Shown in pieces: positions 20,141 to 23,329 of a stretch of DNA of 35,316 nt (position 1 is its first letter; the number at the start of each line of letters is the position of its first letter). Source of the DNA: Rhizobium sp. Q54. GTDB lineage: Bacteria > Pseudomonadota > Alphaproteobacteria > UBA828. The stretch is taken from the NCBI GenBank assembly GCA_945892755.1, contig CAMDDO010000030.1:1-35316 (forward strand), read 5' to 3'. The position numbers and the translations under genes are program-made. The notes below the pieces were generated by a model. It was not told where the DNA came from, ran no database searches, and saw only the letters and a program-made list of their open reading frames with translations.

Positions 20141-20942
20141 GCCGATTCGCCATGAACTACTCGACGGTCTGAGGGGCGGATGCATCAGACACGGTTTTTT
20201 CGGCCGCACCGGTGGCGTCAGCAAGGGCGTCTACGGCTCGCTCAATTGCGGGCTCGGCTCGCGCGACGATACGGAATTGGTGCGCGAGAACCGCGCCCGC
20301 GCGCTCATGGCGCTTGGCGTACCGGGCGTCCCATTGTTGACGCCCTATCAAGTGCATTCGCCGCGCGCCCTGGTGGTGCGTGCGCCCTGGGGTGAGGGCA
20401 AGCCACCCGATGCCGATGCCCTCGCGACCGATGTGCCTCATCTCGCGATCGGTGTGCTCGCGGCAGATTGCGTGCCGGCTTTGCTCGCCGATGAAGAGGC
20501 GAGCGTGATCGGTGCCGCGCATGCGGGGTGGAAAGGCGCGATCGGCGGCGTGCTCGAAGCCGCGGTCGAGGCCATGACCAGCCTCGGCGCCAAGCCGTCA
20601 CGCATCGTTGCGGTGCTCGGCCCGTCGATCGCGGCGGCGTCCTATGAAGTCGGTTCGGAATTTCCGGCGCCGTTCCTCGCGCGTAATCCCGATTGGGCGG
20701 ATTTGTTCCGGCCCGCGCCACGCGCCGACCATCTATTGTTCGATTTACCTGGTTATTGTCTGCGCCGCCTGCGCGCGCTTGGCCTACGTGCCGCCGAGGC
20801 GAGTGGGCACGACACTTTCGCCGCCCATGATCGCTTCTTCAGCTATCGGCGTACCTGCCATGCCGGCGAGACCGACTATGGCCGCAACCTATCGACGATC
20901 GTGCTTTCGCCTTTAGGCGCGCCTAATACGCCAGCTCGGTGA
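20133..20942 (+). CDS. pgeF: Peptidoglycan editing factor PgeF (multicopper-oxidase-like YfiH/YlmD family)
   Basis: A 269-aa protein of the YfiH family, whose E. coli member removes L-Ser-containing muropeptide precursors by acting as an amidase. Members have also been described as purine-nucleoside-processing enzymes. The zinc/copper triad is present as H75 (PYQVHS), C113 (AADCVPALL) and H130 (GAAHAGWKG). The usual [20 protein letters not shown] entry is intact. The start overlaps the midA-like gene by eight bases. The last 20 bases overlap the 3' end of the convergent gshA, with no terminator between. Confidence 0.94.
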
Positions 20943-22287
20943 AGACCGGATCGACCGAGCGGTTCCAGCGCGTCTCATAGGCATCGAGCAGCGCCTCGGC
21001 CGCCGTGCGCCCGGTCGCCAATATCTCTTCGAGCGGCGCCAGATATTCTGTCTCATCGGCCGAGCTCTTGCCCTTGCGCGCGCGCCGTTTGAGACCGCCA
21101 TGCGCGATCACCACCATGTCGCGCGCGATCTCAAGCCCGCCGCGCCCGCCAATGCCCGCTTTGAAACCGATCGTCGGCACTTCGGCGCGTAGTTTGACGA
21201 TCGCCTCCGTCGACCAGCCCTTGCAAAGCTGCTGCGCCTCGTCGAGCGCGATCGAATCATAGAGGAGCCCGGTCCAAAGCGCCGGCAATGCGCACAGGCG
21301 CCGCCACGGCCCACCATCGGCGCCACGCATCTCGATATAGCGCTTCAGCCGCACTTCGGGAAACAGCGTGGTCAAATGATCGTCCCAATCAGCGAGCGTT
21401 GGCCGCGCGCCAGGCAGACCGGGTAATTTACCGGCCAGGAAATCGCGAAAAGATTGACCCGCCACGTCAATATATTGGCCGTCCCGCATGACGAAATACA
21501 TCGGTGTGTCGAGGGCATAGTCGACATAGCGCTCGAAACTCATGCCCGCATCGAACACAAACGCCGGAATGCCGCAGCGGTCCGGGTCGGTATCGGTCCA
21601 AATATGGCTGCGATAGCTCAAATAGCCGGATGGCTTGCCTTCGACGAACGGCGAATTGGCGAACAGCGCGGTCGCGATCGGCTGCAAGGCCATGCCGACC
21701 TGCATCTTGCGCACCATGTCGGCTTCGGATTGGTGGTCGAGATTGACCTGCACCGTGCAGGTGCGCGTCATCATATCGAGCCCGAGCGAGCCTTTGAGCG
21801 GCATGTACCGGCGCATTATTTTGTAGCGCCCTTTCGGCATCCAGGGGATCTCATCGCGCCGCCATTTGGGCTGCATACCAAGACCGAGAAAGCCGACGCC
21901 AAGCTCCTTCGCCACTTCGCTCACTTGCGCGAGGTGGGTGTTGAGCTCATTGCACGTTTGATGGAGGTTCTCGACCGGCGCGCCGGAAAGCTCGAACTGC
22001 CCGCCCGGCTCAAGCGACACCGCCTGACCATCAAATGACAGCGCGATGACATTGTCGCCCTCATAGATGGGTTTCCAGCCAAAGCGCGTGAGGCCCTCCA
22101 ACATGGCGCGGATGCCCGCCGGCCCGTCATAGGGCAGCGGGCGCAGATCATCGAGACGGAAGCCGAATTTCTCGTGCTCCGTACCGATGCGCCACGCCGA
22201 TGGCGGCTTGCAGCCCGATTCGAGGTGGGCGACCAGCGCGCGCCTGTTCTCGACCGGCTCCTGTGACGCCTTGGAAGGTCCGCTCAT
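20923..22287 (-). CDS. gshA: Glutamate--cysteine ligase, plant/alphaproteobacterial type
   Basis: The first enzyme of glutathione synthesis, an ATP-dependent ligase of glutamate and cysteine. The 454-aa product shows the GCS2 features of the plant-like group: [11 protein letters not shown] near residue 33, [45 protein letters not shown] and [12 protein letters not shown]. This class is regulated by a redox-sensitive disulfide in plants. Conservation of those cysteines was not assessed. GGGAGG precedes the ATG by about 12 bases on the minus strand, and a GC hairpin lies farther upstream in the leader. It is probably monocistronic. Its 3' end overlaps pgeF by 20 bases. Confidence 0.96.
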
Positions 22288-22338: not shown

Positions 22339-22383
22339 GTGCTTCCCTTACGACGAATCCGGGGCAAGCCGCAAGCGACCGAA

Positions 22384-22683
22384 AGAGTATATTCCGACCA
22401 AGCTGGACCAGTTGCGTTGCGTCGTGGCGAGGCGAGCCGCCAGGCGCGACGCGTCGTGCGCCAATGCGCACGCAGGGCGTGCGACGAGCGATGCGGGGCC
22501 ATCGGTCGAGCGGCGCAACGAAGCGGGCGCCCGCCGCGGCGCAACCCGCAGGGCCAGGGCCTTTTGCGTCGCGGGTTCGTCGCAGGGCTCGCCCGTAGGC
22601 CCCGCTACGCACTTCGCCCTGTTTCTGCCCGCGACGCAAAATTCCTCCGGCGCAACTGATTCACCTTGGTCGGAACATGCTCT
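22384..22683. mobile_element. 300-bp MITE-like element with 33-bp terminal inverted repeats
   Basis: The left end (22384-22416) and right end (22651-22683) are inverted copies matching at 28 of 33 positions. Both contain an exact 11-bp block TTCCGACCAAG and an exact 8-bp block CAGTTGCG, with outer AGAG/CTCT termini. The interior is very GC-rich and full of nested inverted repeats. It encodes no transposase. Open frames on both strands run through it but end or merge into neighbours and look spurious. No target-site duplication is obvious in the flanks. It occupies most of the 478-bp gap between gshA and lemA. A non-autonomous transposable element or an extragenic palindromic repeat family are both possible. 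Confidence 0.65.
22562..22641. repeat. 80-bp triple-stem palindrome inside the TIR element
   Basis: A perfect 14-bp stem joins TTTTGCGTCGCGGG (22562-22575) to CCCGCGACGCAAAA (22628-22641). Inside it a 6-bp stem joins CAGGGC (22583-22588) to GCCCTG (22616-22621), and a 5-bp stem joins CGTAG (22594-22598) to CTACG (22605-22609). As RNA or single-stranded DNA this would form one long hairpin. A competing pairing (AACCCGC upstream with GCGGGTT at 22571-22577) is also possible. Confidence 0.7.
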
Positions 22684-22765
22684 AGGTGACCACGGGCGAC
22701 GCCCGCCTCGGGGCCGTGCTAATCTTCGCCCGTCGCATTCGGCGCGGCAGCCACGCGAGGCACGC

Positions 22766-23329
22766 ATGACCGTCATCTATATTCTGATCGGCGTTGCGGC
22801 ATTTCTGCTGCTCATGCTGATCGTCTTGTTCAACCGCCTGGTGGCCGGACGCAATCAGGTTGAATCCGCATGGCAGCAGATCGACGTGCAGTTGCGGCGG
22901 CGTTACGATTTGATCCCCAATCTGGTCCAAGTGGTCAAGGACTACATGGGCTATGAGCGCGAGACGCTCGAAGCGGTGGTGAACGCGCGCAATTCCGCGA
23001 TGAAGGCCCACGACGGCGGCACGCGCGAGCAACAGATCGCCGCCGAGAATGTGCTCAGCGGTGCGCTTGGCAAGATGTTCGCGCTGAGCGAGGCCTATCC
23101 CGACCTCAAGGCCAATACAAATGTGAGCCAGCTGCAAGAGGAATTGACCACCACCGAGAACAAGATCGCCTTCGCGCGCCAGTTCTACAATGATTCGGTC
23201 GAGGCGCAGAACACGCGGGTCGAATCCTTCCCGTCGAACCTGATCGCCGGTTGGTTCCGCTTCCAACGCCATCCCTATTTCGAAACGCCACCGGAAACCC
23301 GCGAGGCGATCAAGGTTACGCTGCGCTGA
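22766..23329 (+). CDS. lemA: LemA family protein
   Basis: A 187-aa protein with an N-terminal membrane anchor (about residues 3-22) and the long helical LemA domain: RNQVESAWQQIDVQLRRRYD, LIPNLVQVVKDYMGYE, then LEEELTTTENKIAFARQFYN-like and YNDSVEAQNTRVESFPSNLI segments. Function is not settled, but LemA genes are very often paired with a membrane M48 protease, as here 18 bp downstream. The frame is open back to 22412 through the TIR element. Those codons are unlike LemA, and the ATG at 22766, preceded by GAGG, gives the normal length. Confidence 0.93.
   Translation: MTVIYILIGVAAFLLLMLIVLFNRLVAGRNQVESAWQQIDVQLRRRYDLIPNLVQVVKDYMGYERETLEAVVNARNSAMKAHDGGTREQQIAAENVLSGALGKMFALSEAYPDLKANTNVSQLQEELTTTENKIAFARQFYNDSVEAQNTRVESFPSNLIAGWFRFQRHPYFETPPETREAIKVTLR

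Follow-up and report, generated by a model that had tools for sequence, protein, structure and literature searches.

What is the 300-bp palindromic sequence that separates gshA from lemA in this Rhizobium sp. Q54 contig, and how did it come to lie there? We analysed the whole stretch of 35,316 nucleotides, hereafter the window. The first-pass annotation had described inverted ends matching at 28 of 33 positions, strong self-complementarity and the absence of a transposase, and these observations hold. The two arms, at 22384-22416 and 22651-22683, pair at 28/33 positions and lie 234 nt apart; the 300 bp form a far more stable fold than their dinucleotide-shuffled versions do (RNA z = -8.3, DNA z = -6.9; 0 of 200 shuffles equal), and no transposase gene is present within the 302 bp. 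The inverted-repeat element itself thus stands, whereas its boundaries had to be corrected: by comparison with other copies, the transposition unit spans 22385-22682 (GAG...CTC), and the target dinucleotides extend it to 22383-22684 (Table 1). The neighbouring genes encode a GCS2-family glutamate-cysteine ligase (20923-22287, minus strand) and LemA (22766-23329, plus strand); the site of the element is thus a divergent promoter region. No Rfam family was matched by the element at the gathering threshold or at a lax one.

Table 1. Coordinates of the element between gshA and lemA and of its parts (positions in the window)
Feature	Position	Strand	Basis
Whole element including both TA target dinucleotides	22383..22684	.	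302 bp; aligned with 14 other copies and with empty sites
Left target dinucleotide (AA; formerly TA)	22383..22384	.	TA in other copies; empty site of sister species fits ACCG-C-TA-G
Left terminal inverted repeat, GAGTATATTCCGACCAAGCTGGACCAGTTGCG	22385..22416	+	Complementary to right arm at 28/33 positions over 22384-22416
Hairpin Y, inverted and more diverged second copy of the conserved hairpin	22464..22540	+	Covariance model R1, 29.4 bits, E 7.5e-5
Hairpin X, conserved 80-nt hairpin	22558..22637	-	R1, 96.8 bits (window copy part of the R1 training set); covariation on alignment A2; MFE structure equals covariation structure
Right terminal inverted repeat, GAGCATGTTCCGACCAAGGTGAATCAGTTGCG (inward reading)	22651..22682	-	Complementarity to left arm; terminus matches
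GANTC (CcrM methylation) site, only in right arm	22658..22662	.	
Right target dinucleotide TA	22683..22684	.	Comparison with copies and empty sites

The first-pass annotation had read the sequence as a MITE or a large palindromic repeat. For such an element, it expected multiple copies with conserved ends in the genome and relatives with an empty gshA-lemA gap, whereas a single copy conserved in the same gap would point to a resident sequence. We observed the former pattern, which supports that reading. The window genome (assembly G000; 3.27 Mb, 117 contigs) contains at least four further long copies (contigs C16, C3, C17, C59, C106) and element fragments on contigs C7, C18 and C25, and its 19-bp terminus gives 13 matches with up to three mismatches compared to 0 for the reversed control. 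About nine further copies are present in the two sister species together, and 11 complete copies, not counting that of the window, could be paired end to end. Several copies are located at contig ends (start of C17 and end of C106 in G000, end of C305 in G002), so that these assemblies probably understate the number of copies. Other palindromes were also encountered in the genus: a second palindromic sequence (CCGCCGGCGGCGGTCCAGACCGTC...) is nested inside L052 (G002:C39) and L054 (G002:C305), and the repeated CCCTCTCCC...GGGAGAGGG palindromes at L018, at L061 and inside L043 apparently form a separate repeat family.

In both sister species, the gshA-lemA gap is uninterrupted. The empty site of G001 reads GCAAGCGACCG-CTCG-GTGACCACGG and the filled site of the window GCAAGCGACCG-AAA-GAG...CTC-TA-GGTGACCACGG. 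Four further insertions have empty orthologous sites; three of these align with no gap where the element inserted, and one has small gaps close by. The cleanest pair consists of the empty site AAGTCTAGCAGG and the filled site AAGTC-TA-GAG...CTC-TA-GCAGG. The five occupied/empty comparisons fit insertion at the TA within YTAR, with duplication of the TA. The first-pass annotation had seen no target duplication because the left TA of the window copy has decayed to AA; the 2-bp duplication does exist. The flanking 4-mers are unequal in several copies (left CTAG and right CTAA in L048, L050 and L003; TTAG and CTAG in L049), which favours a 2-bp TA over a 4-bp duplication, with the palindromic targets leaving some room for other duplication lengths. 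Judging from the multiple copies and the empty orthologous sites, we conclude that the element is mobile and that the window copy probably inserted between gshA and lemA after the host species had diverged from its two known sister species. Its strong conserved fold and its divergent promoter position might instead suggest a resident of the gap, either a structured RNA or a region regulating gshA/lemA; this is highly improbable, since the empty sites already refute a locus-specific resident element and the same sequence occurs at unrelated loci with other neighbouring genes.

The interior of the element consists of one 80-nt hairpin in two inverted copies that are arranged head-to-head. In an alignment of the copies from the genus, compensatory changes affect 21 of 102 predicted pairs, in the terminal stem as well as in the inner ones. 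Alignment A2 covers the 80-nt hairpin of 19 elements, with the paired structure set by hand; here, 89% of the cells are paired compared to 68% in shuffled versions, and 18 of the 23 pairs are compensated. The covariation score is 0.534 compared to 0.172 after shuffling and at most 0.139 in slid versions. The energy fold of hairpin X from the window reproduces the hand-set structure. In this hairpin, CAGRAR/GACG and GAA/GA are the internal loops, which do not vary, and CGGGG is the apical loop. Hairpin Y alone folds no better than its shuffles (z = +1.3). Of 67 scanned loci, most have the hairpin in both orientations, as does the window. Some elements are shorter (L053, 191 bp; L178, 148 bp; L238; L317); these have apparently lost one hairpin and kept both ends.

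The core also occurs in other alphaproteobacteria. Exact matches of the inner motif GCGTAKCGGGGNMTACGNNYGAG were detected in 7 of 289 alphaproteobacterial genomes (reversed control: 0), mostly inside inverted-repeat elements of ~270 bp that have the same layout but different ends and belong to genomes of other families. The covariance model of the hairpin matches 30 of 385 alphaproteobacterial genomes (E <= 1e-4), many of them with at least 12 scored candidates. We could delimit 96 elements in 26 genomes, and 72 of these are 263-275 bp long. As the delimitation demanded a TA at one end, the frequency of TA is partly built in, whereas the flanking bases are not: a Y precedes and an R follows in 58 of the 62 two-TA elements with readable flanks. 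One relative resides on a named plasmid of Terrarubrum flagellatum (Hyphomicrobiales), between PTS genes; searches of plasmids with whole elements gave otherwise chance-level matches. The exact 20-bp end has only three matches in named genomes, one of which is the sister MAG Baikal-deep-G55, and a class-wide scan with the short end TAGAGCATGNTC was uninformative, being only modestly above its control. Similarly, the likeness of the AGAGCATG terminus to other alphaproteobacterial palindromes, which had been pointed out in the first-pass annotation, is weak by itself, as the short pattern exceeds its control only modestly across the class. That annotation had recognized neither the TA duplication nor the double-hairpin core, nor that the element is distributed class-wide and that the ends of its relatives are linked to IS1380 and IS5. 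In the open-access literature, we found no description of the core motif or of such MITEs in alphaproteobacteria, and we know of no description of this element superfamily. The sequence is a MITE-like element, but its superfamily, in which the core is conserved and the ends can be exchanged, is apparently undescribed.

Elements of the superfamily are often located exactly at stop codons, where the element end regenerates the TAG; the window copy is not. Flanking reading frames that enter an element open are in the frame closed by its own TAG far more often than in either other frame. Where the open flanking frames have at least 150 codons, 28 of 43 end at the TAG of the element (p = 2e-5 compared to one third), and where only a single frame is open, 38 of 59 do so (p = 1e-6), with related copies within one genome not being independent in these counts. 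At L006, two convergent neighbours both terminate at the two TAGs of the element, and in the empty site of the sister species (GTCTAGGGC) both stop codons overlap in CTAG. At L050, rpmJ ends with ...ARQG at the TAG of the element. The excess may result from the availability of YTAR at stop codons, without active targeting.

A GANTC site about 23 bases into exactly one arm is present in 33 of the 96 elements. None has the site in both arms, compared to about five expected if the arms were independent, a contrast that is weakened by shared ancestry. A CcrM-type methylase is encoded in all three genomes of the genus; it matches the NCBIfam CcrM model over its full length, with a score below the cut-off. 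IS10 provides a precedent in which Dam couples transposition to replication, and by analogy GANTC might possibly play a similar role here. The single-arm GANTC, found in elements of 12 of the 26 genomes, and the methylase could also indicate a CcrM-associated intergenic repeat of the CIR type, which would act in methylation-linked regulation and spread by an unspecified route. Such repeats were reportedly described for Caulobacter and Brucella by Chen and Shapiro in 2003, and they share with our elements the intergenic location and the GANTC in one arm. However, CIRs are described as ~110 bp long with two separate arms, no 5'-3' stem and GANTC at a terminal loop (PMC2229807). CIRs are not known to insert at TA, whereas our elements are ~270 bp long with long terminal repeats, and the arms of the window copy pair end to end (28/33). 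Furthermore, the sampled elements of 14 of the 26 genomes carry no GANTC. We thus regard a CIR-type repeat as quite unlikely.

The terminal repeats differ by branch: one branch has the ends of the IS1380 family and another has the ends of an IS5-family IS. Relatives of the G006, G298 and G330 type have CTAGCCCGCATTTCTCAC-like ends. The G006-type CTAGCCCGCATTTCTCAC is identical to the 18-bp ends of 1663-bp IS1380-family ISs (Pseudomonas putida, Stutzerimonas plasmids), and near-exact CTAGCCCGCATTTCTCAC ends are found on an IS1380-family IS in Bradyrhizobium. In contrast to these ISs, the relatives are ~270 bp long and gene-less, and the ends of the window branch differ. The end of the Terrarubrum element matches one end of a Hymenobacter IS5-family IS over 22 bp, and the window genome also harbours superfamily elements with GAGCCTGTTTGGGAATT-type (IS5-like) ends (L321, G000:C35:21685-21991; L322, G000:C86). 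Thus, one core travels with ends from two or more families of transposases. In L003 (G000:C3:42997-43268), the two arms are of different end types, mismatched at 11 of 34 positions and hybrid-like; this is possibly a trace of end exchange between two subfamilies.

Which transposase moved the window branch? We detected no IS with the exact ends of this branch (GAGCATGTTCCGACCAAG) in the assemblies searched; these are fragmented, and thus an IS could be missing. The window genome has 0 matches to PF13358 or PF13340. An IS630/Tc1-mariner origin was rejected, with PF13358 absent from G000 and G001 and three matches in G002 without matching ends; none of the IS5-type PF13340 loci in the family has TAGAGC ends. 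The window ends GAGCATGTTCCG resemble the IS5-like GAGCCTGTTTSG, the likeness being partial (GAGCMTGTTYSG). Together with the TA duplication, this makes an IS5/IS427-type transposase our best guess, and such a transposase probably moved the window branch. IS711 duplicates the TA of YTAR (PMC2266754), and most of the IS427-group ISs listed for Paracoccus have 2-bp repeats (PMC3281130). As IS1380 ends next to CTAG occur in relatives that share the core, a transposase of the IS1380 type instead of the IS5 type might be considered for the window branch; it is unlikely, however, since the window ends are closer to GAGCCTGTTTSG than to CCCGCATTTCTCAC and the 2-bp duplication fits IS427.

Among known systems, MITEs of the IS5/IS427 (IS711-like) type are similarly short, gene-less and intergenic, with long terminal inverted repeats and a TA duplicated in YTAR. 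Our element differs in that its interior is conserved class-wide and that a parent IS with its ends was not found. The Bru-RS sequences of Brucella are likewise repeated alphaproteobacterial palindromes near YTAR/IS711 biology but have a length of 103-105 bp (PMC2267715). RUP, ERIC and Correia elements are also small mobile repeats that form hairpins and have a terminal TA, but they are shorter and come from other phyla or classes. Both of these comparisons are by description and not by sequence.

Between genomes, the mean identity is 57% for the hairpin, 41% for the ends and 31% for shuffled arms, where the value for the ends is the best of four arm pairings and the hairpin alignment was fitted to the covariance model. 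MITE interiors normally drift, and the conserved core is thus not accounted for by transposition alone. As the core was kept across the superfamily while the ends changed, it is probably functional: it may act as single-stranded DNA or RNA in its folded form, or a protein may bind to it. In the simplest case, it would aid the spread of the element itself. The higher conservation of the core compared to the ends, its invariant internal loops and its covarying stems are also compatible with a selfish or useful RNA, in which a putatively transcribed core is selected for its RNA fold and the transposase ends are mere transport. We consider this possible but clearly the less probable reading, as no strand preference was found (the bias of G-T versus A-C pairs indicated opposite strands in the two alignments) and the hairpin occurs in both orientations inside one element.

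We thus conclude that, in all likelihood, the sequence between gshA and lemA is a full-length non-autonomous element that inserts at the TA of YTAR by means of a DDE transposase acting in trans, and that it combines a class-wide core with exchanged ends. According to this explanation, a DDE transposase encoded elsewhere, here most likely of the IS5/IS427 type, would recognize the terminal inverted repeats of ~33 bp and cut the YTAR target, whose central TA would become duplicated. The ends would change to suit different transposases (IS1380-like, IS5-like), whereas the paired hairpin would be retained. It appears likely that various DDE transposases move the elements in trans and that ends are exchanged, and the identity of the window-branch transposase and the role of the core are what we infer within this explanation. 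More tentatively, and with rather less than even probability, the elements might form a class-wide family with a selected double-hairpin core that has switched transposases via its ends, targets stop codons restored by its own end and couples transposition to replication through one terminal CcrM site.

MITEs are usually seen as dead ends that derive from a single insertion sequence and whose interiors carry no meaning. In our elements, this is reversed: the interior is stable and covarying, whereas the ends are changeable and common to at least two transposase families. Insertion at stop codons offers an explanation for how such elements settle harmlessly between tightly packed genes. If the core is functional, these structured elements, whether selfish or domesticated, would be of a new kind, and they would provide a model for annotating many intergenic repeats of alphaproteobacteria that are so far unannotated.
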